A stretch of 64,000 nt of DNA, taken from positions 248,001 through 312,000 of the forward strand of contig CAKZLE010000020.1 of NCBI GenBank assembly GCA_937125225.1, written 5' to 3'. The stretch is from an uncultured Spirochaetia bacterium (lineage in GTDB: Bacteria; Spirochaetota; Spirochaetia; CAKZLE01). Every line of letters begins with the position of its first letter. Positions within the stretch are counted from its first letter, which is position 1. Both the position numbers and the translations under genes were made by a program. The notes below the pieces were generated by a model. It saw only the letters and a program-made list of their open reading frames with translations. It had not been told where the DNA came from and did no database searches. Below, one piece after another: positions 1,396 to 38,658 of this stretch.

Positions 1396-1427
1396 CAATA
1401 GTATTTAAAGAGTTGTGAAGGTTGTAC

Positions 1428-4157
1428 ATGTATCAGAGATTTTATAACTATTGGGCTAAAGCGAAAGATTCTCATTCTTATCATCTTTTGATATATCATT
1501 GTCTTGACGTTTCAGCTGTCGGTAATGTATATCTAGAGAAACATCCCGCATTATTACAGCGAATTTGTTCAAATATTGATTGTACTAAACAACAATTCAT
1601 AGCTTGGTATTGTTATGCTTTGGCAATTCACGATATTGGTAAATATGCTGCTTCCTTTCAAAATATCATTCCAGACCTTAGAACTTCACTCATAGGTGAA
1701 TCGCGTAAAACATATAATATCCGACATGACGTTCTAGGCTGGTGGTTGTGGAATACTAAATTCAAACCAATATTGATGGATACGATAGGTGATAAGACAA
1801 CGAACCATCGGAATCTTTTGGTATTTATTAAACCTTTTATGCAAATAGCGATGGGGCATCATGGAAGACCTGTAGATAAAAAAGAAAAATGTGATTATGA
1901 GTTTTTACCTGTAGATATCGATGCTGCATTAACTTGGAACAATGAATGTCAGAAGTTCTTCTCAATTTATGATTATATTCCTATATCTCTTTATAACATG
2001 GAGAAAAGTGAAAGAAAAGCATTTGAAAAAGTTTTCAATGATACCATATGGGCATTAGCTGGCTTAACGACGCTATGTGATTGGATTGGATCTCAAGAAC
2101 AGTTCTTTCCCTATATTTCAGAAAATATAACAATTAAACAGTATTGGGAAGAGTCTATCGAGAAAGCAAAGAAAGCCATTGAAAGTACAGGGCTTAGCTC
2201 AACTACGCCAAAGAACTCGTTTTCAGTACAGAGTCTTTTCCCCGGATTCTTAAACTACACACCATTACAACAGGAATGTATTTCTCTTGATCTACCTCAC
2301 TCTCCACAGTGTTGGATACTTGAAGATATTCCCGGATCTGGAAAAACTGAGGCTGCTCTGATGCTGGCAGGACGGATCATGAGCCTGGGGTTAGCAGATG
2401 GACTCTATATTGGTCTCCCCACTATGGCAACATCTAATGCCATGTACTATAGAATGAAAACGATTTATAGAAAGTTTTTTACATCAGATTCTAAACCATC
2501 CTTGATTCTTGCACATAGTAAGAGATTTCAGATTGAAGAATTTTCTCAAACAGTCTTATCTTTTGACGATTTTAATCTTGATGATCAGATTGGTAGCGAA
2601 CAATCTCTGTGTACTCAATGGTTGGCAGATTCTTCCAAGAAAGCCCTCTTAGCAGATATTGGAATCGGAACTGTTGATCAAGTCCTTATGTCAATATTAC
2701 CTATTCGTCATCAATCTTTAAGAGTAATAGGCCTACAGCGGAAAGTCTTGATCGTTGATGAGGTACATGCCTATGATGAATATATGCTTACTTTACTCAA
2801 ACAGTTGATCTTATTACATGGATTATCTGGTGGTTCAGTAATACTACTATCAGCTACCCTTTCTCAGAAGATCAAAGCAGATCTATTATCAGTTTATTAT
2901 GAATCTAGGATGCGAGAATATCAGGAGATAGAGATAGAAGACTCGTCCTATCCCTTGATTAGTGGCTTTAGTATAGATTCAGATAGTACCTATTGCCTGG
3001 AAAAACCCGTTGCTCCGATTAAGTCATTGTGTCGAACGATACCAATAAGATTTCATGAAGAAATTGAAACAGTCTATGCGACCATTCAAAGAAGGCAAAA
3101 AGAAGGCTCTTGTATTTGCTGGATTAGAAATACTGTTGAAGATGTTATAGATGCGTACAAAAATTTAATATGTCTAAATATTATTCCTGAAGAAAAGATA
3201 TTTGTTTTTCATAGCCGATTTATTATGTTCGATAGGCAATTGATAGAAGATAAAGTCTTATCAGTCTTCGGAAAGAGTTCAACAAGTGAACATAGACAAG
3301 GTATGATCCTCATTGCGACTCAGGTCGTTGAACAAAGTCTAGATCTAGACTTTGACGTTCTCATAACTGATTTAGCACCTGTAGACCTAATTATTCAGAG
3401 ATTAGGGCGTCTCCATCGTCATATACGTGATCCTTTTGGGAATAGGGGAAGGGGGCTCCTTATTGATGAGAGACACCCCCCTTTACTACATATCCATTCA
3501 CCCGAGTTAGATAATAAACCAAAGAAAGATTGGTTCAGTAAAAAATTTCCTAAGGCCTCATATGTATATCAAGATACCGTTAATCTTTGGAGAACTCACC
3601 AGCTGCTTTATCATTTCGGAGAGATTAAGATACCAGAGATGTATAGGGTTCTTATTGAAGGTGTCTATGGAAAGGATAGGGTTCCTACTCCAGTTGGTCT
3701 GGAAAATATTGAAATTAAGACTTCAGGAACCAATGCAATGCAACGTTCTATAGGAGACTTTAATATGCTCAATATTCATGAGGGGTTCTCGTGTGCGAGT
3801 AGTCCAAATTGGGCAGAAGAAGAACAGATACCTTCTAGGTTGGGCCTAAACCAACAAAGATTATTCTTTGGGAAGATCAGTAATGATAAAATAATACCTC
3901 TCTATGGTGATGAATATGAATGGTCCCTTTTCAATGTTCAAGTACGACAAGGACTTTTCACAGAACCGATATTAGATTCTTGCCAAAAGCTAATGATAGA
4001 TGAAGTGACTAGAATGAATAAGTATATGAAAGAGAATGATAAATTTATTCTGTTTTCCAAAGAGAGGGATGGTTGGTTATCTACATATGAGAATACCGAA
4101 GGGGGAAAGATCAATATTTACTATGACCAAGAACTTGGATTCATAATTCAAAAATAG
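1428..4157 (+). CDS. cas3: CRISPR-associated helicase-nuclease Cas3 (type I-E, HD plus helicase)
   Basis: This is the effector nuclease-helicase recruited by Cascade to unwind and degrade target DNA. The N-terminal HD nuclease domain shows His24, the HD pair at 68-69 followed by IGK, and GHHGRP at about 143-148. The superfamily-2 helicase core follows: Walker A GSGKT at about 303-307, DEVH at 444-447, an SAT motif III, and the QRLGRLHRH motif VI at about 657-665. Length is 909 aa, normal for a single-chain type I-E Cas3. I chose ATG 1428 over an upstream in-frame TTG (1422) because GAAGG at about 1417-1421 is correctly spaced for ATG. It is the first gene of the cas operon, with 14 bases to the likely cas8e start. 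Confidence 0.95.
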   Translation: MYQRFYNYWAKAKDSHSYHLLIYHCLDVSAVGNVYLEKHPALLQRICSNIDCTKQQFIAWYCYALAIHDIGKYAASFQNIIPDLRTSLIGESRKTYNIRHDVLGWWLWNTKFKPILMDTIGDKTTNHRNLLVFIKPFMQIAMGHHGRPVDKKEKCDYEFLPVDIDAALTWNNECQKFFSIYDYIPISLYNMEKSERKAFEKVFNDTIWALAGLTTLCDWIGSQEQFFPYISENITIKQYWEESIEKAKKAIESTGLSSTTPKNSFSVQSLFPGFLNYTPLQQECISLDLPHSPQCWILEDIPGSGKTEAALMLAGRIMSLGLADGLYIGLPTMATSNAMYYRMKTIYRKFFTSDSKPSLILAHSKRFQIEEFSQTVLSFDDFNLDDQIGSEQSLCTQWLADSSKKALLADIGIGTVDQVLMSILPIRHQSLRVIGLQRKVLIVDEVHAYDEYMLTLLKQLILLHGLSGGSVILLSATLSQKIKADLLSVYYESRMREYQEIEIEDSSYPLISGFSIDSDSTYCLEKPVAPIKSLCRTIPIRFHEEIETVYATIQRRQKEGSCICWIRNTVEDVIDAYKNLICLNIIPEEKIFVFHSRFIMFDRQLIEDKVLSVFGKSSTSEHRQGMILIATQVVEQSLDLDFDVLITDLAPVDLIIQRLGRLHRHIRDPFGNRGRGLLIDERHPPLLHIHSPELDNKPKKDWFSKKFPKASYVYQDTVNLWRTHQLLYHFGEIKIPEMYRVLIEGVYGKDRVPTPVGLENIEIKTSGTNAMQRSIGDFNMLNIHEGFSCASSPNWAEEEQIPSRLGLNQQRLFFGKISNDKIIPLYGDEYEWSLFNVQVRQGLFTEPILDSCQKLMIDEVTRMNKYMKENDKFILFSKERDGWLSTYENTEGGKINIYYDQELGFIIQK

Positions 4158-4171
4158 GAGTGTGTTCCGAA

Positions 4172-5752
4172 ATGAATTTATTATTAGATAAATGGCTTCC
4201 AGTTGTGAGGCAAGATGGATTAGAGGATACTATTGCTTTCTATGAGATTACTGATGATTTTAAGAATCCAGTAGTAGATATAAAAGCACCTAGACCTGAT
4301 TTTACTAGTGCAATCTATCAACTTCTTATTGGAGTTCTTCAAGTCATGATAGAGCCAAAGGATAATGAAGAATGGGAAGAATTATGGAAAGCCCCTCCCA
4401 ATGTAAAAGAGATCTATGAAAAGTTATTACCATATGAATCATGTTTTATTATTAACAACCCCGAAGGGCCTGCTTTTATGCAGGATTATGACTGGAAAGC
4501 GATGCAAAGCGCTAAAGAAGTTCAGGTCTCGAATCTGTTGATTAATGCTCCAGGTGAAAATGCTTATAAAGAGAATAGGGATCATTTCATAAAACGAGGG
4601 TTTATGAAGACTCTTCAACCCTATTGGGCTGCTATCGCCTTATATACCCTACAATCTTTTTCTCCTTCTGGTGGGCAGGGTATTCGAGTAGGCTTGAGAG
4701 GTGGTGGTCCTTTGACGGTGATTGCTTTACCTCAGGAGTATGATATCCGTTCATCTCTATGGAAGAAGTTATGGTTGAATGTACTCAGTAGGGAATCCTT
4801 TCGAACTCTCATAAACGGAGATCATACTAAATCAGAACTTTCAGATATCTTTCCTTGGATGGCTGAAACGAGAACAAGTAAGAATGATGAATTAACGACA
4901 CCTATGGATGTTAATCCAAAACAAATGTATTTTGGGATGCCTAGAAGAGTGAGGCTCCAATTTGAAGTAAGTACGTGTCCCTGTGATCTTACAAGTACCA
5001 CCTCTCCCTACTCGGTAAGGAACTATCGATCAGTCAATAAAGGGGTTAATTATGGAGGGCCTTGGAGACACGCGTTAAGCTCCTATGTGAAGGATTCAAA
5101 GAATCCAGAGAATCCCCCAAACCCGAAGAAAGGAAGCCCTGAGGGGATTTCATATCGATACTGGCCCGATATTTCTATCAGTTCAGAACCCTATATTATA
5201 CCAGCAAATATCAAAGATTTAGAAAATGAAGAGAAGGAAAAAGCTTTAGTATCTGAGAGTCTAGAGGCTGTTATGTGGGTCTGTGGCTATGATATGGATA
5301 ATGCCAAAACAAGGAACTGGTATGATAAGACCATTCCTACCTTCATTTTACCTCCAGCTCAGCAGATACGCATTCTGGATTACTCTATTCAAATGATTAG
5401 TGGGGCAGAACTTATGAGCAGGGTTTTAAAGAAAGCAATAAAGAATAGTTGGTATAAAGAAAAAGCAACAGTTCGGGGAAACCTCGGGGTCTTTGGAAAC
5501 GAATTTTGGGAGGCGACAGAAGATTTCTTTTATGGGTGTCTTCGTGAACTTGTTATTGATTTTGATGCTTATCCTGCCATTTTTGAAAAATGGCAAAAGG
5601 TACTTATCCATACTGCAGAGGAAATCTTCGAGAGGGTTGTACTTTCAGCACCATTAGATGGAAGCAATATGAAGCGAGTTATTGGAGCGAGAAAAGTGCT
5701 TCAAAACGGAATATGGAAGTTAAAGAAAAGTTATAAAAATTTGATTGTATAA
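4172..5752 (+). CDS. cas8e: Cascade large subunit Cas8e (Cse1/CasA)
   Basis: Large subunit of the type I-E surveillance complex, which recognises the PAM and recruits Cas3. Identification rests on the start region (NLLLDKWLPV), typical of the Cse1 family, on the GGGPLT and WPDI segments, on length (526 aa), and on position directly after cas3. ATG 4172 is preferred to the in-frame GTG at 4160, because the AGGAG at 4156-4160 overlaps that GTG and lies about 11 bases before the ATG. The next gene starts 9 bases after its stop. Base composition is AT-rich, as in the rest of the cas operon. Confidence 0.92.
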   Translation: MNLLLDKWLPVVRQDGLEDTIAFYEITDDFKNPVVDIKAPRPDFTSAIYQLLIGVLQVMIEPKDNEEWEELWKAPPNVKEIYEKLLPYESCFIINNPEGPAFMQDYDWKAMQSAKEVQVSNLLINAPGENAYKENRDHFIKRGFMKTLQPYWAAIALYTLQSFSPSGGQGIRVGLRGGGPLTVIALPQEYDIRSSLWKKLWLNVLSRESFRTLINGDHTKSELSDIFPWMAETRTSKNDELTTPMDVNPKQMYFGMPRRVRLQFEVSTCPCDLTSTTSPYSVRNYRSVNKGVNYGGPWRHALSSYVKDSKNPENPPNPKKGSPEGISYRYWPDISISSEPYIIPANIKDLENEEKEKALVSESLEAVMWVCGYDMDNAKTRNWYDKTIPTFILPPAQQIRILDYSIQMISGAELMSRVLKKAIKNSWYKEKATVRGNLGVFGNEFWEATEDFFYGCLRELVIDFDAYPAIFEKWQKVLIHTAEEIFERVVLSAPLDGSNMKRVIGARKVLQNGIWKLKKSYKNLIV

Positions 5753-5761
5753 GGAGTGATC

Positions 5762-6301
5762 ATGGCAATAAAAGAACCGTATCGGGCTATATATAATAAT
5801 CTATATAGTGAAAATAGCAGGCAGGCTATCTTGATCTGGTGGAAAGAATTAGAAGCCAGAAAAGGTGAAAGATCTGAATTGAGAAGAGCAGATTCTCCCA
5901 TAGCTGCTGCAATGTGCAAAGCTACATATAGATTGCAGAATGTCTTACCCTACTGGAACCATGAACCGGAAATCCTTGCCATCGTAGCTGGAATCCTCTC
6001 AACTGTAACAAGCTCATTAAGTACAATAGAGTCGTTTCCTATGCAGATGGCTAGTAAAAATGGTGAAAAACCCTGTGTGAGTGAATCGAGATTTCAAAAG
6101 ATAATAAAAAGTCATGATTTACCTGAACTATACCTTCAGACAAGAAGAGCGGTAAAATTAATTGAGGGACCTATAAATATACTTTCTTTAGCAGATGGGA
6201 TTATCTCTTTTTCTGAAATCATTCTGGGTAAGGAGATTCCTAGTAGTAAAAAATCAGTTACATATCAATGGGCGAATGACTATTACTCAAAATTATTATA
6301 A
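5762..6301 (+). CDS. cse2: Cascade small subunit Cse2 (CasB, Cas11e)
   Basis: Small all-helical subunit; two copies form the inner belly of type I-E Cascade and stabilise the R-loop. The protein is 179 aa, rich in charged and helical residues, with the family-typical RRADSP and WNHEPE segments. It lies in the fixed Cse1-Cse2-Cas7 order. ATG 5762 follows AAGGAG (5751-5756) by 5 bases; an in-frame GTG at 5756 overlaps that ribosome site and is unlikely. Assignment relies partly on gene order because the family is divergent. Confidence 0.88.
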   Translation: MAIKEPYRAIYNNLYSENSRQAILIWWKELEARKGERSELRRADSPIAAAMCKATYRLQNVLPYWNHEPEILAIVAGILSTVTSSLSTIESFPMQMASKNGEKPCVSESRFQKIIKSHDLPELYLQTRRAVKLIEGPINILSLADGIISFSEIILGKEIPSSKKSVTYQWANDYYSKLL

Positions 6302-6320
6302 ACAAATAAGGAGCTTTCAC

Positions 6321-7352
6321 ATGTCTAAATTTATTCAATTACATCTATTAACATCTTATCCACCATCAAACCCCAATAGGGATGACCTAGGGCGTCCAAA
6401 GACGGCCCGAATGGGTGGGGTAGACCGATTGAGGATTTCCTCTCAAAGCCTGAAACGAGCTTGGAGAACTTCTGATGTCTGTATGGATAAACTAACAGGG
6501 AATACTGGAATTCGTACAAAACATATCGGTGATGAAGTCTATAAAAGATTGGTTACTGGTGAGATTAATGAAAAAAAAGCAATGAAATGGGCTGGAGTTA
6601 TAGCTTCTCAATTTGGAAAACTAAAAAAGGACAGTGTTGAGATTGAACAACTAGTTCATGTGAGTAAAGAAGAACTCGAACTAGTCTATGCATTGGTAGA
6701 TAAGCTTATTGTGGAGAATAGAGACCCTGAAAATAATGAACTGAAATTCTTGCGAAATAAAGTAAATTCTGTAGATATTGCTCTATTTGGTAGAATGTTA
6801 GCATCTTCACCAGAGAAGAATATTGAGGCTGCAGCTCAAGTTGCTCATGCAATATCAGTTAACCAAATTGTAATTGAAGATGATTATTTTACTGCAGTAG
6901 ATGATCTCAATAGTAAAGAAAATGCAGGAGCAAGTCATATCTCAGAGGCCGGGTTTAGTTCAGGAGTTTTCTATATTTATATCTGTATAAATAAGACACT
7001 TCTTATTGAGAACCTCAATGGCAATATCGATTTGGCAAATGCTGCGATACAAGCATATATTGAAGCTGCATTGACAGTCGCACCCTCTGGAAAACAGAAC
7101 AGCTATGCCAACAGGGTAAGAGCCTCCTATTCTTTAGTTGAAATCGGCAACCAACAACCTAGATCCTTATCAGTTGCTTTCCTGGATCCTGTGACTGAGA
7201 AAAACCAACTTGAAGCATCGATTAATAGGATTGCTACCCAAAAAGAAAATATGGATCGGGTATATGGACCCTGCTCTGAGGCTGATTACTCCTTTAATGT
7301 TTGTACAGGAACAGGAAGTATGGCAGATCTATTAGCTTTTAGCTGTAAGTGA
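6321..7352 (+). CDS. cas7e: Cascade backbone subunit Cas7e (Cse4/CasC)
   Basis: Backbone RAMP protein that polymerises along the crRNA spacer (six copies in E. coli Cascade). The N-terminus HLLTSYPPSNPNRDD and the RISSQSLKRAWR segment are characteristic of the CasC/Cse4 family. Length is 343 aa, as usual. The frame is open upstream to 6195, but AAGGAG at 6308-6313 places the start at ATG 6321. The gene follows cse2 by 19 bases, and its stop overlaps the region that serves as ribosome site for cas5e. Confidence 0.94.
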   Translation: MSKFIQLHLLTSYPPSNPNRDDLGRPKTARMGGVDRLRISSQSLKRAWRTSDVCMDKLTGNTGIRTKHIGDEVYKRLVTGEINEKKAMKWAGVIASQFGKLKKDSVEIEQLVHVSKEELELVYALVDKLIVENRDPENNELKFLRNKVNSVDIALFGRMLASSPEKNIEAAAQVAHAISVNQIVIEDDYFTAVDDLNSKENAGASHISEAGFSSGVFYIYICINKTLLIENLNGNIDLANAAIQAYIEAALTVAPSGKQNSYANRVRASYSLVEIGNQQPRSLSVAFLDPVTEKNQLEASINRIATQKENMDRVYGPCSEADYSFNVCTGTGSMADLLAFSCK

Positions 7353-7359
7353 GGATCAA

Positions 7360-8112
7360 GTGAAATTTCTATTATTTAGATTATATGCTCCCCTGTCTTC
7401 ATGGGGAGAGATTGCAGCGGGAGGAGAAAGATGTTCTTCAGATCATCCCTCCCGTTCTGCAATCATCGGACTAATTAGTGCAGCCATGGGTATAAGACGG
7501 GATGATAAAAGACGTTTGTCTCAATTAGATGAATATTTAGGAGTGGGGATTAAAATGTTATCATCTGGGGATGTGTTGCATGACTACCACACCATTGAAG
7601 TTCCAGTCTCTTCTAAGAATACCGTATATCATACTCGGAAATCTGAATTGTCAGATAAGAAGAGTTTGAAAACAATATTATCAAATAGAGAGTATCGTTC
7701 TGATGCCTTATCCATTATTGCAATCTGGGGTAAAGCTGATAGTAGATTGTCTTTAGATGAAATAAAAGAAAGTTTACTTACTCCTAAATTCCATCTCTAC
7801 CTCGGGAGGAAGTCATGTCCTTTGGCGTTACCTATGTCTCCTATCATCTTAGAAGAAGATTCCCTTCTAAAGGCTTTTTCAATGGTGGATTTCAATGAGA
7901 TATTTATGGCGAAACATAAGCAAAAAGATGATGACGATCAAAGATTTTTACGATTGGACAGTTCTAAGATTAGTTATTATTGGGAAGAGACTACTATTGC
8001 TGGAATGCATCCCGATTTTAAAATAAAACGATTTGATGCTGTCTTAGATCGTTCGAAATGGTTATTCACTACAAGAGATGAATTTAAAGCCTTAGGACGT
8101 AAGGAGCAATAG
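7360..8112 (+). CDS. cas5e: Cascade subunit Cas5e (CasD)
   Basis: RAMP-fold subunit that caps the Cas7 backbone and holds the 8-nt 5' handle of the crRNA. The start KFLLFRLYAPLSSWGE and the DHPSRSAIIGLISAAMGI segment are hallmarks of Cas5e. Length is 250 aa. It starts with GTG at 7360, just after a GAGG element that overlaps the cas7e stop, which suggests translational coupling. The gap to cas6e is one base. Confidence 0.93.
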   Translation: MKFLLFRLYAPLSSWGEIAAGGERCSSDHPSRSAIIGLISAAMGIRRDDKRRLSQLDEYLGVGIKMLSSGDVLHDYHTIEVPVSSKNTVYHTRKSELSDKKSLKTILSNREYRSDALSIIAIWGKADSRLSLDEIKESLLTPKFHLYLGRKSCPLALPMSPIILEEDSLLKAFSMVDFNEIFMAKHKQKDDDDQRFLRLDSSKISYYWEETTIAGMHPDFKIKRFDAVLDRSKWLFTTRDEFKALGRKEQ

Positions 8113-8113
8113 T

Positions 8114-8815
8114 ATGTTTATAAGTAAAATTGGATTTAACGATTCAGGAGAAGCAAAGAATGAATTGTTGAATTGGGTAAAGATGCATAATCAAAGTGAA
8201 TATAGTGAACATCAACTACTATGGGAGAGTTTTCCCAACAGAGGGGATGAGGAACGATCCTTCATTTATCGAAAAGAAAGAGGGGGACACTCTTCTTTTC
8301 CTTTTTTCTATTTAGTCTCTGAGATTGCACCTATTAGTGATAGGAATTTCTTACAAGTATTAGGTATTAAAGAATATGATCCTCAGATTGTTGAAGGAGA
8401 ACTGTTATCATTCTCAGTACGTATCAATGCTACGATATCAAAGAAAGTGCCTGGAAAAAAGAATTCAGTGAGACATACGATCTGGCAAGATGCTAGAGCT
8501 GAGGGATTAAAAAATGGATTAGAGGATGAGAACTTAGCAGAATTTATAGATTTAACTACCAAAGAGTGGTTAGTTTCTAGAGCAGAAAGAAACGGATTTA
8601 GTATTAGTTGTGATGATTTTATTGTTGAAGGATATGAAAAAATTACTTTTACGAAAAAGAAAAACCAGAAAGAGATTTCTTTTGGTGTAGTAGACTATAC
8701 AGGAACCTTACGAGTTACGAACCCCTTAAGATTTAAAGAGCTCTTATTCAAAGGTATAGGACGATCCAAAGCATTTGGTTGTGGATTGATGTTAGTAAAA
8801 CGAGTGCAGAGTTAA
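8114..8815 (+). CDS. cas6e: crRNA endoribonuclease Cas6e (Cse3/CasE)
   Basis: Metal-independent ribonuclease that cuts the repeat hairpin at its 3' base and stays bound to the crRNA. A histidine at residue 33 (in EHQLLWE) sits where the catalytic His of Cas6e is expected. The C-terminal Gly-rich GIGRSKAFGCGLM stretch is the RNA-binding glycine loop of the family. Length is 233 aa. AAGGAG about 8 bases upstream supports ATG 8114. It should process the adjacent repeat, whose stem is CCCCAC/GTGGGG. Confidence 0.93.
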   Translation: MFISKIGFNDSGEAKNELLNWVKMHNQSEYSEHQLLWESFPNRGDEERSFIYRKERGGHSSFPFFYLVSEIAPISDRNFLQVLGIKEYDPQIVEGELLSFSVRINATISKKVPGKKNSVRHTIWQDARAEGLKNGLEDENLAEFIDLTTKEWLVSRAERNGFSISCDDFIVEGYEKITFTKKKNQKEISFGVVDYTGTLRVTNPLRFKELLFKGIGRSKAFGCGLMLVKRVQS

Positions 8816-8818
8816 CTC

Positions 8819-9992
<1,174 letters not shown>

Positions 9993-10093
9993 ATACATAA
10001 CAGTTTTTTGAAAAGAAAGAGAAGGATCACTAATAATTGGTAGATTTTTATAATTTTTATAAAAACATATATAATATATATTTATTTGTTAGT
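9993..10093 (+). promoter_or_regulatory. CRISPR leader
   Basis: A 101-base, strongly AT-rich segment lies between the cas2 stop and the first repeat. It contains a TATAAT at 10070-10075 that could start pre-crRNA transcription close to the array; no good -35 is visible. It is assigned as leader because it lies next to cas1-cas2 and because repeats are perfect at this end and decayed at the far end. I saw no clear IHF consensus. Confidence 0.75.
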
Positions 10094-12685
10094 ATATTCC
10101 CCACGGATGTGGGGATCAACCGAACATCTTACCCTTATAGGTCGGATCGTCTGGATATTCCCCACGGATGTGGGGATCAACCGGCCACCGTGGCAGCGCT
10201 CAAGACCGACGACCCATATTCCCCACGGATGTGGGGATCAACCGTACGAAGAGGGGCGGGAGATCGAGAACATACGATATTCCCCACGGATGTGGGGATC
10301 AACCGTCTATGACTGGGGCGATGACATTCCATTCTAGATATTCCCCACGGATGTGGGGATCAACCGTAGAATTTAAGAGGGGTGATATTGTTAGTTATAT
10401 ATTCCCCACGGATGTGGGGATCAACCGTTCCGAGATTTGAGAGACCTGACTCTCTATTGATATTCCCCACGGATGTGGGGATCAACCGTGGCGAGACACA
10501 CAACATTAGATGTGATAACAAATATTCCCCACGGATGTGGGGATCAACCGGCTGTAATGATTACAGTTGTTAGTCATGTATTATATTCCCCACGGATGTG
10601 GGGATCAACCGTATACATCGACTTGCCTAGAATCCATCCCTGAATATTCCCCACGGATGTAGGGATCAACCGAACAGGAGGTTCTCAGTGTAGGGTTTGT
10701 AGGTATATTCCCCACGGATGTGGGGATCAACCGTCTCGTAATTGCCACTACCTGAGTGATATGTTATATTCCCCACGGATGTGGGGATCAACCGGTTTGG
10801 GTAGTAGGTAACATAGACCTGTTTAGATATTCCCCACGGATGTGGGGATCAACCGTGAACACCATACGGAGTTGCTAGTTTCCGACAATATTCCCCACGG
10901 ATGTGGGGATCAACCGTTCCTATCGAGTTTTCCGACAGCCTGGGCAACATATTCCCCACGGATGTGGGGATCAACCGCATTAGGGATTGATACTTTTTTC
11001 AACTTCTTTATATTCCCCACGGATGTGGGGATCAACCGCTTGGTAAGTGGGATATAAACTGTTATGAAAAATATTCCCCACGGATGTGGGGATCAACCAC
11101 TCCTCGACAAGAACGGTAAGAGATGGTTTGAATATTCCCCACGGATGTGGGGATCAACCGAATCTTCTCGTAGTACTCATCACTACTGGGTTATATTCCC
11201 CACGGATGTGGGGATCAACCGTGATGAAACGAACGTTGCAGGAATGGGCTGATATATTCCCCACGGATGTGGGGATCAACCGGTGGACATAGCTTGTGGG
11301 TCGAGGAGGACGGAATATTCCCCACGGATGTGGGGATCAACCGAACGACAGACACACCCAATAGAATGAGTGGTAATATTCCCCACGGATGTGGGGATCA
11401 ACCGGCTGCATGATCCTGACACTGTACGTTGTACGGATATGCCCCACGGATGTGGGGATCAACCGTGGTGTGGTAAAACCGAATCTTGTATTGATCAATA
11501 TTCCCCACGGATGTGGGGATCAACCGACGGTGGAGAAAGAGCACTATCCCTCCTCGCCATATTCCCCACGGATGTGGGGATCAACCGAGGTGGGGCGAGT
11601 CATTAAATGGGTTAAGCGTATATTCCCCACGGATGTGGGGATCAACCGACATCCCGAGCCATACCTGTAAGATATGCGACATATTCCCCACGGATGTGGG
11701 GATCAACCGATAGTTCTAAAAAATCGTCTCCTCTATCAGGTATATTCCCCACGGATGTGGGGATCAACCGAAATCAAAGATATCGTACAATTGTGTAGGG
11801 ATATATTCCCCACGGATGTGGGGATCAACCGTCATCATCACTAGATACGTCTGCTGTTCCTGAATATTCCCCACGGATGTGGGGATCAACCGCTTATTAT
11901 CATGGTCAATATATGCATACGATTATATTCCCCACGGATGTGGGGATCAACCGGTTTGCATATACATAGCCCCCACACCAAGGAAATATTCCCCACGGAT
12001 GTGGGGATCAACCGGAGACAAAGACAATGACTAAGACAATCAAATCATATTCCCCACGGATGTGGGGATCAACCGAATATCAGTGATACTATGGAATACA
12101 TTATTACATATTCCCCACGGATGTGGGGATCAACCGGATTATTTTCTCCTCCAGCTTTCGCCCTTCAAATATTCCCCACGGATGTGGGGATCAACCGTAT
12201 CAAGGTATCAGAGTACGAGTATAGTACCTATATTCCCCACGGATGTGGGGATCAACCGGGTGATGTGTTGGTGAGGAACAAGAATATAAAATATTCCCCA
12301 CGGATGTGGGGATCAACCGAGTGGTTCTAAGACGAGGGTTCAATTCCCTCCATATTCCCCACGGATGTGGGGATCAACCGGGTTATTGAGTATAAACCTG
12401 AAAAAGGATGCTATATTCCCCACGGATGTGGGGATCAACCGACTTTAACGAGAAGCTCCTCTGGGTCATTCTTATATTCCCCACGGATGTGGGGATCAAC
12501 CGCTGTGAATGTGTTGTTTACCGTATACTCGTCTATATTCCCCACGGATGTGGGGATCAACCGGGTGAATTCATGGCAAGAAATTATGAGAATAAATATT
12601 CCCCACGGATGTGGGGATCAACCGCTCGTAAGGAGAGTTCGGCTCCCTTTCGTTGCATTTTCCTCACAGGTGTGGGGATTAACAT
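10094..12685 (+). CRISPR. Type I-E CRISPR array, 42 good repeats plus one decayed terminal repeat, 42 spacers
   Basis: The 29-bp repeat starts ATATTCCCCACGG and ends ATGTGGGGATCAACCG. It folds as CCCCAC (repeat positions 6-11) with GTGGGG (16-21), and Cas6e cleavage would leave the 8-nt handle ATCAACCG. The period is 61 bases with 32-bp spacers; the spacer at 10489-10521 is 33 bp. Repeats run from 10094 to 12624. A final degenerate copy at 12657-12685 matches 22 of 29 positions and marks the leader-distal end. Single variants are at 10644 (G18 to A), 11071 (G29 to A) and 11437 (T5 to G). I saw no duplicated spacers. Short ORFs across this stretch, repeating a PTDVGINR-like motif, are artefacts of the repeats. 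Confidence 0.98.
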
Positions 12686-34021: not shown

Positions 34022-34911
34022 TGAACTCAGAGGCTCAACAGTCCGATCTATTACCGCCACCTTTCTCACTCTGCTGTGAGCAGGATCCTCAGGTCATCTC
34101 GACCTTTCAGAGGATCATCTATGACTATTATGAGGATCATGAGCGCTCCTTTCCGTGGAGGGAGAGCTGTGATCCCTATCATATCCTTCTTTCAGAGATG
34201 ATGCTTCAACAGACCCAGACCCATCGTGTCCTGCCGTTCTATGAGAAGTTCCTCTCAGCCTGGCCTACCTTCACCGATTTATCAAAGGCCTCTCTTACTG
34301 ATATCCTCTCCCGATGGAAGGGGCTTGGCTATAATAGAAGAGCTTTAGCCCTTAAGAAGATCTCAGAGGTATCTGTAGAAAAATATGGGGGGACGCTTCC
34401 CGACGATCAGAGGCTCCTTATGGAACTTCCTATGATCGGACCTGCCACTTCAGCTGCTATACTTGCCTTCGCCTATAGAAAGCCTTCTCTCTATCTTGAG
34501 ACGAATATACGAAGGGTCCTTCTCTATTTCTTCTTTGATGGGGTCGAGGGAGTCAAAGATAAACAACTGTATGAACTTCTCGAGAGAATCTTGGATCAGA
34601 AGGATCCGAAGAACTGGTATTATGCCTTCATGGACTATGGAGTCTTTCTTAAGAGTAAGGTACCGAATCCAAATCGGAGGAGTGCCCATTATACGAAGCA
34701 AGGTAAGTTCGAGAACTCGAATAGACAGATTCGAGGAGAACTGCTGACGATCTTCACACAACAGGGGGCAGTCACCCTAGAGACAATAGAGAACGCTCTC
34801 TCCTTTCCTGGTGAGAGGATCAAGTGCTGTATCGATGCACTAGAGCGAGAGGGGTTCATTACTGTCGATGATTCATTAGCTGAAACGGCTCCTATCTATC
34901 GGATCCGTTAG
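34021..34911 (+). CDS. MutY-like HhH-GPD DNA glycosylase lacking the Fe-S cluster
   Basis: A 296-aa base-excision repair glycosylase of the endonuclease III/MutY superfamily. The N-terminal FPWR, the catalytic Glu59 in LSEMMLQQTQ, GLGYNRRAL, and the helix-hairpin-helix LPMIGPATSAAIL match MutY. Two differences stand out. The catalytic Asp of the LDxNVxRV motif is Glu160 here (YLETNIRRV), and none of the four cluster cysteines follow; the segment reads PNPNRRSAHYTKQ instead. The MutY C-terminal 8-oxoG recognition domain also appears absent. It is probably a known cluster-less subfamily, with uncertain substrate. It is translationally coupled to trpS, and its 3' end overlaps the convergent transporter gene by 20 bases. 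Confidence 0.83.
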   Translation: MNSEAQQSDLLPPPFSLCCEQDPQVISTFQRIIYDYYEDHERSFPWRESCDPYHILLSEMMLQQTQTHRVLPFYEKFLSAWPTFTDLSKASLTDILSRWKGLGYNRRALALKKISEVSVEKYGGTLPDDQRLLMELPMIGPATSAAILAFAYRKPSLYLETNIRRVLLYFFFDGVEGVKDKQLYELLERILDQKDPKNWYYAFMDYGVFLKSKVPNPNRRSAHYTKQGKFENSNRQIRGELLTIFTQQGAVTLETIENALSFPGERIKCCIDALEREGFITVDDSLAETAPIYRIR

Positions 34912-35791
34912 CCTGAGCGATCCTGTCGATCCTAATATTCCAGTACATACCGAGTAGGATGAAGAGAATCCCTATGATCTGATTGAGGGGGACCTCTCCG
35001 TAACGGATAGCATCCAATATGATCGCAGCGATGATCTGACCTGAGAACTGGAGTAGGGTACTGTATACCGTCGGGATCTTGGGGATGATCCAATTACACA
35101 TGAATACTGCGATCACACCAAGAGAACCACCACCTATGACGATCAGGAGGGGGATCTCGGGGAGTGAGGAAAAACTTTCTTTCAAGGGGACTGAGAGAAG
35201 GATACAAAGGACAATACTGAGGATGATTGCGACCGTGAAGTTATTTCTCGTAGCCCGTAATAGCCCGATCTTAGATGCCAATCGTGCATTGATGATCATC
35301 TGAGTGATCGTGATTCCTCCACTGATGAAGGCGAGTACGATATAGAGGAGTTCAAAAGAACCCCTACTTGCCATGATGATGATCCCTGAGAGACTGATGA
35401 GGAACCCTATCAGTTTCTTTCGATCGAACTTATAGGTCTTCACTCCAAGGAACCCAGTCGTATCTGCGATGAATGCGGTGATCGATTGTCCTAGCACAAC
35501 TGTTGCAAGGGTCAGAGATGCCCCTATATTCTGAAAACAGAGGGTATTCATAAAGACAAGAGCCACTCCAAAGAGGCCTCCTACCCTGAGTAGGGGATGA
35601 GGTCTTTCTATGATCTTAGGTCTCAGAATGAGAATGATACTCGTAGCTAGGAGTCCTCCGACAAGATGAATGACCACTATGGAGAACATCAGCCCTGAGG
35701 CCTCTGCGAGTTCCTTGTTGAAGTTGATCATGATCGCGATCACACTACCGTTGAGTATCGCAAGAATCGGAAAGACATTACGCTTGTTCAT
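34892..35791 (-). CDS. DMT-superfamily transporter, YdcZ/DUF606-like
   Basis: A 299-aa membrane protein with ten hydrophobic segments in two similar halves. Both halves follow the DUF606 pattern (FPILAILNGSVIAIMINFNKEL near the N-terminus and FISGGITITQMIINARLA mid-protein), so it looks like an in-chain duplication of a five-span unit. Substrate is unknown. The gene converges on the MutY-like gene with overlapping ends and is divergent from the CPA2 antiporter. Confidence 0.82.
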   Translation of the reverse strand: MNKRNVFPILAILNGSVIAIMINFNKELAEASGLMFSIVVIHLVGGLLATSIILILRPKIIERPHPLLRVGGLFGVALVFMNTLCFQNIGASLTLATVVLGQSITAFIADTTGFLGVKTYKFDRKKLIGFLISLSGIIIMASRGSFELLYIVLAFISGGITITQMIINARLASKIGLLRATRNNFTVAIILSIVLCILLSVPLKESFSSLPEIPLLIVIGGGSLGVIAVFMCNWIIPKIPTVYSTLLQFSGQIIAAIILDAIRYGEVPLNQIIGILFILLGMYWNIRIDRIAQANGSDR

Positions 35792-35874: not shown

Positions 35875-37119
35875 ATGGACCTATTAACAACTGAATTGAT
35901 AGCATTGCGTGATGTAGTGAATGAGAGTGGCCTGTTTACCGTCGGTCTGTTACTCTTCTTCGGTTATATCATGGGAAAACTGGTAACAAAGATCAAGCTT
36001 CCGGAAATAACCGGATATATCTTCGCAGGACTCATCATGGGTGATGCGGTGACGGGGCTTGTTCATCACGAGATGGGTGAATCCTTGAAGTTCGTCACTG
36101 ATCTAGCCTTGGGGCTTATTGCCCTTACGATCGGTGGTGAGTTCTATTCTGCAAAACTCAAGAGTATGGGAAAGGAGATCGTCGTCATGACGATCTTCCA
36201 GGTAGGGCTTGCCTTTGTGGTGGTATCGGTGACGATGCTTCTCTTTGGTGTCGAACTACCTTTCGCCCTGCTGCTAGGTGCCATATCGACGGCTACAGCT
36301 CCGGCTGCCACGGTCGCGATCGTACAGAAGCTCAGAGCTCATGGGAAGTTCATCGATTATCTCTACGGACTTGTCGCATTGGATGATGCGGGGTGTGTAG
36401 CCATATTCGGTGTGGTCTTCGCACTTTCTGTTGGGATGCTCAATCCTGAGGCTCACGGTGCTGGACAACTGATTCTCCATGCATTCGAAGAGATCGGATT
36501 CTCTCTGCTTATCGGAGCCTTTGCCGGTTGGTCTATTCATATGATGACCCGAAAGAAGAATGGTACCAACGAGATCCTGCTGATCACCTTAGGGATCATC
36601 TTCATCGAGACCGCTTTGGCGATCATCCTGAATCTCTCCCCCCTTATGTCAAATATGGCAGCAGGGGCGTTGCTGATAAATGCATCACCGAGGAATCATC
36701 GTATCTTCAGATCGATCGAACCCTTGACTCCACCAATCTATGCACTGTTCTTCGTCATCGCTGGAACTGAACTCAACCCTCATGTACTCTTTGATAAGGA
36801 TATCCTCATTGTCGGTTTCGCTTTCATCATCGCTCGTGGTATCGCAAAGTACTCCGGTGTGAGATTAGGTGCGAAGCTTACCGGAATGACTGGATGTATA
36901 AAGACTCAGTTAGGTCTCTGCATGATCCCTCAAGCGGGGGTCGCGATAGGATTGGTCCTGCTGATCCAGGCCTCACCGATGATTGCAGGGTTATCACATC
37001 TGTATGCTGATATGATCGCTCAGATGGTGAATATCATCCTGCTCTCAGTATTCGTGAATGAATTGATCGGCCCCTCATTGGCAAGGCATGCGATCATGAA
37101 AGCAATGGAGGAAGACTAA
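35875..37119 (+). CDS. Cation:proton antiporter, CPA2 family
   Basis: A 414-aa inner-membrane exchanger with about twelve hydrophobic spans. It shows the KLPEITGYIFAGLIMG start, the ATAPAATVAIVQKL segment and ALDDAGCVAIF, whose Asp pair corresponds to the ion-binding DD/ND of the family. The protein lacks C-terminal RCK/TrkA domains, so regulation probably comes from the coupled EIIA-type protein. The stop overlaps the next ATG (TAATG), implying equimolar synthesis with that regulator. Confidence 0.9.
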   Translation: MDLLTTELIALRDVVNESGLFTVGLLLFFGYIMGKLVTKIKLPEITGYIFAGLIMGDAVTGLVHHEMGESLKFVTDLALGLIALTIGGEFYSAKLKSMGKEIVVMTIFQVGLAFVVVSVTMLLFGVELPFALLLGAISTATAPAATVAIVQKLRAHGKFIDYLYGLVALDDAGCVAIFGVVFALSVGMLNPEAHGAGQLILHAFEEIGFSLLIGAFAGWSIHMMTRKKNGTNEILLITLGIIFIETALAIILNLSPLMSNMAAGALLINASPRNHRIFRSIEPLTPPIYALFFVIAGTELNPHVLFDKDILIVGFAFIIARGIAKYSGVRLGAKLTGMTGCIKTQLGLCMIPQAGVAIGLVLLIQASPMIAGLSHLYADMIAQMVNIILLSVFVNELIGPSLARHAIMKAMEED

Positions 37120-37946
37120 TGGAACTATATAATATAATTGATAAGAACTGCTGCAGTGTGTCACTGAGCTCCAAGACAAAACAGGACGTGCTTCATGAAC
37201 TTGCTTCTCTCGCTGTACAGAATGAGAAACTCGGGGAGTTCGGAGTTGATGCGATCTACCAGGGATTGAAACAAAGGGAGTCAGATGGATCGACTGGCTT
37301 CGGTGATGGAGTGGCCCTCCCTCATATGAGACTCAAAGGACTCGATCAGTTCCTCGTTTTCATAGCGACCTCAAAACATGGGGTAGAGTTCGATAGTATC
37401 GATAAGAAGAAGGTCCATCTGATCTTCACGATCATCGGGCCTGCTGAACAGGTCAATGAACACGTTCAGATCCTTGCAAGTATCTCACGTGCTCTGACGA
37501 CTACACAGATCAAGAAGGAGCTGCTCTTAGCCAAGACTTCCGGAGTCCTCTATGAGACTTTTCTGAAATCGGTCGAACAGAGTATTGATGCCACAGCCCC
37601 AAGAAGGAAGATGAAACTCATGTATGTGGTACTATACCTCGAAGAGTTCCTCTACCATATTCTCGAGTATTTCATCCAGGAGGGGATTGATGGAGCGACC
37701 ATCATAGAATCCTCCGGTATGGGAGCCTATATATCTAATATACCGCTATTCGCGACCTTCATAGGATTCTTCAATGAGAGAAAGAATCAAAGTAAGACTA
37801 TCATGGCTCTAGTCCCTGAGGATAGAGAACAGGAGATCGTTGAAGGTATCGAGAAGATCACAGGGGATCTCGATAAGAAAGAGGGGGCTATGATCATTAC
37901 GACAGAGGTCTCACTCTATCGTGGATCCATGAAGATCATGGGGTGA
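37119..37946 (+). CDS. EIIA-type (PTS fructose/nitrogen family) regulator with C-terminal PII-like domain
   Basis: A 275-aa soluble protein of two parts. Residues 1 to about 150 form a type-2 EIIA domain with phospho-acceptor His69 in GDGVALPHMRL and the VHLIFTIIGP strand. Residues about 165-275 look like a nitrogen PII-type fold: KLMYVVLYLEEFLYHILEYF, then GIDGATIIESSGMGAY, and EKITGDLDKKEGAMIITTEV near the end. No EIIB, EIIC or sugar genes are nearby, so it is more likely a regulator of the coupled antiporter than a sugar-PTS component. The EIIA call is firm; the PII-like call is by pattern. Its 3' end overlaps the convergent ecfT gene by 11 bases. Confidence 0.83.
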   Translation: MELYNIIDKNCCSVSLSSKTKQDVLHELASLAVQNEKLGEFGVDAIYQGLKQRESDGSTGFGDGVALPHMRLKGLDQFLVFIATSKHGVEFDSIDKKKVHLIFTIIGPAEQVNEHVQILASISRALTTTQIKKELLLAKTSGVLYETFLKSVEQSIDATAPRRKMKLMYVVLYLEEFLYHILEYFIQEGIDGATIIESSGMGAYISNIPLFATFIGFFNERKNQSKTIMALVPEDREQEIVEGIEKITGDLDKKEGAMIITTEVSLYRGSMKIMG

Positions 37947-38658
37947 TCGAGACGAATAAGACGAAGATGATATAGATAGTAGAGATCAGTAGATACACCG
38001 TATCTCTGAATCTCCAGTCGAGTCTCCCATGCATGATACTGGGGGTGAAACATCTTGATTCCAGCGCATAGGAGATCTCTTCGGCTCTATCAAGAAGGAG
38101 GTCGAAAAGTTGTCTCCCGATTGAAACGAGACGTCTCAGAGGTTGTCTTCTGGCATCTTCATGTCGTGATCGCCTGGCTTCTTGTATCTCCTTTGAAGCA
38201 TCAAAGATCACAGGAAAGAAGCTGACAGTCAGATTGAGTTTTGCGGCAGTATTACTGGCGAACTCCTTCGAGAAGGGTTTGAGTATCCAATAGATAGCTA
38301 ATGACATCTCATTTGGTGAGGTCGTATCTGATAGGATGAGCCCCATCACCACGACTGAGAAGAACCTACCGGCTGCGGTGATCGCTGTGATAGGATTACC
38401 TGACCCCCACCAACGCATAAGAAATATCATTACTGAGAAACCCACAAAGAAGATGATCTCCTTCCTATAGGCCCTAACAGGCATTCGTGCAGTGATCAAG
38501 GCTAGTGCGAGATAGGGGAGCATCAGAAGGAATCCCGTTGTATTGAGATTCAGTAGCGAGAGGGTGAGTACGAAGAGGGTGAACATCTTACTCCTCGGAT
38601 CAAGGCTATGAGCTATAGTCTTTCGGTCATGATAGTGAAAGATCAGTCTTTCAGCCAT
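37936..38658 (-). CDS. bioN: ECF transporter transmembrane subunit EcfT (biotin, BioN-like)
   Basis: Scaffold subunit of an energy-coupling-factor importer, 240 aa. The N-terminal LDPRSKMFTLF motif and the coupling-helix motif EARRSRHEDARR are diagnostic of EcfT/CbiQ. It lies after the ATPase and the biotin-binding BioY in a minus-strand operon, overlapping the ATPase gene by 16 bases. The single-ATPase, dedicated arrangement fits a BioMNY group I system. Confidence 0.9.
   Translation of the reverse strand: MAERLIFHYHDRKTIAHSLDPRSKMFTLFVLTLSLLNLNTTGFLLMLPYLALALITARMPVRAYRKEIIFFVGFSVMIFLMRWWGSGNPITAITAAGRFFSVVVMGLILSDTTSPNEMSLAIYWILKPFSKEFASNTAAKLNLTVSFFPVIFDASKEIQEARRSRHEDARRQPLRRLVSIGRQLFDLLLDRAEEISYALESRCFTPSIMHGRLDWRFRDTVYLLISTIYIIFVLFVSITP

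Follow-up and report, generated by a model that had tools for sequence, protein, structure and literature searches.

Little is known of how bacteria link cation:proton exchange to their carbon and energy state; one worked example is the PtsN-YcgO pair of E. coli. There the unphosphorylated form of the EIIA-Ntr-type protein PtsN binds and inhibits YcgO, so that phosphorylation state is proposed to gate an antiporter (PMC11808508). PtsN acts in trans as a protein of its own and has no PII part, and YcgO is a K+/H+ antiporter of the CPA1 family with a C-terminal PtsN-binding region. In our literature search, which reached few of the subscription papers, this was the only case of an EIIA or PII-like protein described with an antiporter. 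A ptsN copy inside an ion-transport operon is found in the KdpD/ptsN2 operons of alphaproteobacteria, but in that case a sensor kinase of K+ import is targeted, not a cation:proton antiporter, and there is no PII part (PMC13104625). Regulators of the PII fold are genetically linked to membrane transporters in the SbtB-SbtA and GlnK-AmtB systems; their PII proteins have no EIIA domain and the transporters are not antiporters, and PII-regulated transporters known so far work as trimers (PMC10710835). PstA/DarA (PF06153) is a lone PII-fold protein without the ATP-phosphate-binding loops.

The locus described here lies in a 64,000-nucleotide stretch from an uncultured Spirochaetia bacterium (the window), and consists of a cation:proton antiporter gene followed by a gene for a protein that joins an EIIA domain to a PII-like domain. 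In contrast to PtsN-YcgO, the EIIA domain is encoded in cis and fused to a PII-like domain, and the antiporter is a NapA-like CPA2 protein without the YcgO-type C-terminal region. Precedents exist for the parts and for every single pairing, but the combined and recurrent EIIA and PII-like module is apparently undescribed in the literature covered by the search. Our preferred reading, to which we give a probability of roughly 0.7, is that the antiporter and a dedicated dual-input EIIA-PII regulator form one unit controlling antiport. The features of the locus are as follows.

35875..37119, forward strand: CPA2/NapA-type cation:proton antiporter, 414 aa (PF00999 E=1.2e-33, NapA alignment, motif survey)
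37107..37121, forward strand: GGAGG Shine-Dalgarno-like site and TAATG stop/start overlap (read from the sequence)
37119..37946, forward strand: EIIA-PII fusion protein, 275 aa (open reading frame, Pfam, AlphaFold2, Foldseek)
37134..37565, forward strand: EIIA-Ntr-type domain, residues 6-149 (PF00359 E=7.4e-27; Foldseek 1a6j)
37323..37325, forward strand: His69 codon (CAT), predicted phospho-acceptor position (invariant in A1 and every EIIA examined)
37611..37907, forward strand: PII-like domain with modelled ferredoxin fold, residues 165-263 (AlphaFold2, Foldseek PstA 4wk1, alignments)

The antiporter and the two-gene unit

The sole Pfam match of the 414 aa protein is PF00999, and it carries no RCK/TrkA_N domain of its own, as the first-pass annotation had noted. 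It aligns with NapA (5bz2/4bwz) at E of about 1e-9 with the DD and Lys in register, D170-D171 and K325 corresponding to the NapA signature, and the unwound-helix motif ATAP is found at residues 140-143. In a motif survey of 53 antiporters its pattern reads ATAP..L..DD..K, that is, it has the DD, the lysine in TM10 and the lack of a Glu at motif position 5 by which CPA2 proteins are recognised. Its score against the TIGR00932 CPA2 model is 59.6 bits, below the cut-off of 238.3. The CPA2 identity proposed at first pass thus holds by motif and NapA similarity and not by the TIGR00932 model. According to the published rule for CPA2 proteins, in which the combination of DD and Lys points to electrogenic exchange and a non-polar residue at the fourth position to a preference for Na+ (PMC6181914), the protein is probably an Na+-selective, electrogenic cation:proton exchanger.

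The TAATG tie between the two genes reported earlier is confirmed by the reading frames (35875-37119 and 37119-37946), as the antiporter stop codon TAA (37117-37119) and the following ATG (37119-37121) have one base in common. A GGAGG at 37107-37111 lies inside the 3' end of the antiporter gene, 7 nt 5' of the second ATG, and therefore translational coupling of the two genes is probable; a one-base overlap or a gap of less than 10 bases is also present in most orthologues. The two-gene unit stands alone, being preceded by a divergent gene (34892-35791, reverse strand), which by eye we take to be EamA-like, and followed by a convergent gene (37936-38658, reverse strand), presumably EcfT-like by eye, which overlaps the EIIA-PII stop codon. 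Promoter-like matches near the operon did not exceed chance expectation. Terminator-like matches were all located inside the antiporter gene and none is claimed.

Conservation of the gene pair

Loci with the order found in the window, antiporter (CPA) and then EIIA-PII, are here called class A. In the 60 genomes of the same taxonomic class the antiporter gene lies immediately 5' of the EIIA-PII gene at every close orthologue (L002-L010), mostly with the same one-base overlap, and overall the antiporter is adjacent in all 21 class A loci that could be read through unbroken. Since every one of these keeps the antiporter, the pairing is not a chance adjacency. For the genome scan the profile was built from a six-row subset, the alignment of 19 PII-like domains being too diverse. 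At E<=1e-6 the PII-like domain was present in 33 of 393 genomes of the phylum, eight of which, from six families, carry class A, with the antiporter adjoining the gene in all of these bar one broken copy. Class A is found by named records in several Spirochaetes bins, one WOR-3 bin and one Planctomycetaceae bin, the last two of which may reflect contamination of the metagenome-assembled genomes. One class A locus (L011/L136; G046 C7) has broken frames, either by decay or by assembly errors.

The EIIA domain and the PTS of the host

Residues 6-149 of the 275 aa protein match PF00359 (PTS_EIIA_2) with 94.5 bits (E=7.4e-27), above the cut-off of 27, and Foldseek matched the first half of the protein in the PDB to EIIA-Ntr 1a6j (E=2.8e-12, TM 0.92 by target). 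The active-site histidine, His69 in this protein, is invariant across A1 and all EIIAs examined, in agreement with the domain and residue first proposed. The protein scores below the cut-off of the PtsN equivalog model TIGR01419 (88.7 bits against 138.7).

The host genome encodes two EI, three HPr, an HPr kinase, a diadenylate cyclase (DAC) and a separate canonical GlnB. With EI, HPr and HPr kinase available, phosphorylation of His69 by the host PTS is possible; given in addition the DAC and the separate GlnB, both inputs are conceivable and the EIIA-PII protein is, judging by gene content, not the nitrogen PII of the cell. Three of the four PF00999 genes of this genome are paired with EIIA (the window, a paralogous operon at L031 and an EIIA-CPA at L032) and the one at L173 is unpaired. 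The paralogous operon (C20:132000-142000; L031:3425-6168) is of class B, described below, and its antiporter keeps the DD and has no TM10 lysine. EIIA matches in the host number nine, four of them in antiporter loci and two each forming the C-terminal domain of an amino-acid permease. One of these permeases (PF13520) is in the window itself at positions 1-1131 (the gene starts upstream; L183:64-1893), with the histidine of its EIIA domain kept, and the second is located at L181.

Also in the window, positions 1422-9730 and about 10062-12300 hold a CRISPR-Cas locus, of type I-E by its Cse1, whose cas genes include those for Cas3 and Cse1, with an array of more than 40 repeats at 61-nt spacing.

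The PII-like domain and its candidate ligands

The C-terminal half falls below the cut-off of every PII family model. Its match to PF00543 (P-II) at residues 178-248 is weak, with E=0.052 and 14.3 bits for the whole protein, or 16.6 bits for the domain alone, against a cut-off of 25. An AlphaFold2 model built on an alignment of 26 homologues (pLDDT 81.8) predicts for this half the elements b165-172, a175-187, b193-199, b224-233, a234-248 and b257-263, which is the b-a-b-b-a-b order of PII, and the T-loop region is modelled with moderate confidence (pLDDT about 53-74). Foldseek matched it in the PDB to PstA (4wk1; modest E=1.6e-4, TM 0.80 by target). The ferredoxin-like PII fold anticipated in the first-pass annotation is thus borne out at the level of a predicted structure, of PII/PstA type. 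The Borrelia protein BB0017, a PII-like match met in published work, belongs to YitT/DUF2179 and has no relation to the system.

In an alignment with the host GlnB, and unlike SbtB and GlnK, the domain is missing the canonical ATP/2-oxoglutarate residues (T-loop Tyr51, B-loop TGxxGDGKI and C-loop Arg). As the Walker-A-like B-loop and the C-loop Arg hold the ATP phosphates, ATP sensing in the GlnB manner is unlikely. The T-loop is replaced by a similarly long segment bearing a conserved PLFAxFxxF (about residues 200-223). What is best conserved, in class A and in class C (see below), are a G-A-T and a G-M-G at the adenine pocket. The former matches the adenine-packing Gly-Ala-Thr of Listeria monocytogenes PstA, in which Gly26-Ala27 pack against the adenine and Thr28 is also used (PMC4475381). 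Since this pocket is kept while the triphosphate loops are lost, an adenine mono- or cyclic nucleotide would fit better than ATP.

A special case of the preferred reading, and compatible with it, is that the domain is a c-di-AMP receptor, so that the antiporter would read the PTS state together with a potassium or osmotic second messenger. PstA being the closest solved fold, the shared GAT motif, the diadenylate cyclase of the host and the weak CdAMP_rec match of one A4 member (E=0.0035) all point this way, but the window domain itself has no CdAMP_rec (PF06153) match up to E 0.1, the GGFL of the PstA T-loop is replaced by GMGA, the T-loop and B-loop lengths differ, the long PstA B-loop not being conserved, and the Foldseek E value is modest. 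We regard this narrower version as possible but tentative.

Slightly less probable, and in our opinion doubtful, is that only the EIIA half signals while the PII-like half is a trimerising or docking scaffold which binds no ligand. The loss of the canonical residues would fit such a role, as would the class B PII half, which retains even less of the pocket motif; against it, the GAT and GMG lining the adenine pocket are the very part under strongest conservation in classes A and C, and PstA, which lacks the same elements, binds c-di-AMP (PMC4475381).

Other classes and other transporters

Related proteins occur in further arrangements, and the system is wider than the first-pass annotation saw. 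Class B has an HTH_17-EIIA protein resembling a transcription factor, then EIIA-PII and CPA, and class D combines EIIA-PII with another CPA clade; the antiporter is adjacent in 10 of 11 class B and in all four class D loci, one of the latter (L020) having a CBS protein in between in the order CPA-CBS-EIIA-PII. In class C the two domains are separate genes, PII-like (about 115 aa) and EIIA (about 152 aa), followed by the Mrp antiporter genes MnhE-F-G-B-C-D. Here MnhE is named by Pfam and the other subunits less firmly, by eye from the order and sequence of L039 and then as search queries. Class C records include Sphaerochaeta, Breznakiella homolactica (L061), Gracilinema, Treponema, Alkalispirochaeta (A. 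alkalica, L092), Aerophobetes, Chitinispirillum and Omnitrophota.

Single cases include a PII-EIIA reading frame of reverse domain order heading an Mrp operon (L086:353-1147), EIIA and PII-like genes before a ClC chloride channel/antiporter gene (L108:3612-5683) and an EIIA-PII-CPA locus in a Gemmatimonadota bin (L104), while in Bacillota bins a PII-like gene adjoins a CPA gene. In L029:1480-3432 CPA and EIIA are in one reading frame of more than 650 aa; several other EIIA frames of 700-775 aa in same-class genomes may resemble this fusion. At L063:10757-12342, 3' of an Mrp operon missing its EIIA gene, an antiporter-like protein ends in an EIIA domain, as if the EIIA had moved.

Counted as distinct domains in a family gathered by searching with these same domains, and so not a random survey, the PII-like domain was fused with a CPA antiporter nearby in 35 cases, standalone with Mrp in 60, standalone with CPA in 6, fused with no CPA in view in 1 and in a PII-EIIA fusion with Mrp in 1, with no such context seen in 27, several of which are at contig ends. 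Standalone PII-like proteins of Ruminococcus (L112-L119, L122, L123, L127) have no transporter nearby; their neighbours include what we take by eye to be NusA-like and LytR-like proteins.

In the EIIA tree the fusions of classes A and B group together with support (100/97), with the D fusions and the Mrp-linked EIIAs elsewhere, and the PII tree likewise splits D from A and B, its deep forks being uncertain as it has few columns. The trees indicate that the fusion arose at least twice. Proton antiporters are the partners in each of these at least two fusions and in the separate pairing of Mrp operons, which argues for a functional coupling.

It is unlikely, more so than the scaffold role, that EIIA-PII is a general PTS/PII output on other targets (kinases, transcription, c-di-AMP or nitrogen enzymes) sharing the operon for common expression only, since, even with E. 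coli PtsN having several targets (TrkA, KdpD, YcgO; PMC13104625), class B operons encoding a transcription-factor-like HTH-EIIA and some PII-like relatives lying away from antiporters, co-expression alone is strained by the association with two CPA2 subfamilies, another CPA clade, Mrp and ClC, by at least two independent fusions and by EIIA and CPA in one chain.

Proposed mechanism

In the preferred reading of a dedicated dual-input regulator, whose function, ligand and direction of control we infer, EI and HPr of the host would phosphorylate His69 in response to PEP and carbon state. The PII-like part would form trimers with a ligand-binding cleft between the subunits, and the small molecule bound there would most likely be an adenine nucleotide of the mono- or cyclic kind (AMP, cAMP or c-di-AMP). 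In one of its states the regulator would use the hydrophobic segment replacing the T-loop to dock on the antiporter; by analogy with PtsN-YcgO (PMC11808508) this is most likely the state with unphosphorylated EIIA. Docking would shut the antiporter, stopping proton influx and cation efflux when the energy or carbon state demands.

The main structural objection is one of symmetry. NapA-type antiporters are dimers, so that a simple plug by a PII trimer would be mismatched in symmetry. The absence from the window antiporter of the region by which YcgO contacts PtsN also speaks against the reading, as do standalone PII-like relatives, in Ruminococcus and others, with no antiporter nearby. The dual-sensing antiporter suggested by the first-pass annotation is supported by the modelled PII-type fold and by the wide conservation of the pair.

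For the family as a whole we see about an even chance that EIIA and the PII-like domain make up a dual-input module that can be transferred between proton-coupled ion transporters to control them, built at least twice by fusion and at least once as a gene pair. It would act on CPA2 and another CPA clade, on Mrp and possibly on ClC, and through it the Na+/H+ balance of spirochaetes and some other bacteria would depend jointly on PTS phosphorylation and on a second messenger of adenine type. The PII-like family would add a PII subfamily recognised by no curated model. A cis-encoded dual-input regulator recurring with unrelated antiporter families would, if true, make the link between cation:proton exchange and carbon or energy state directly testable, and would raise the question of how dimeric or multi-subunit antiporters are controlled by what is presumed to be a trimer. 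That this host puts most of its EIIA domains on transporters other than sugar permeases would be explained as well. The pairing of EIIA-PII with an antiporter looks like an undescribed tie of ion balance to energy state.
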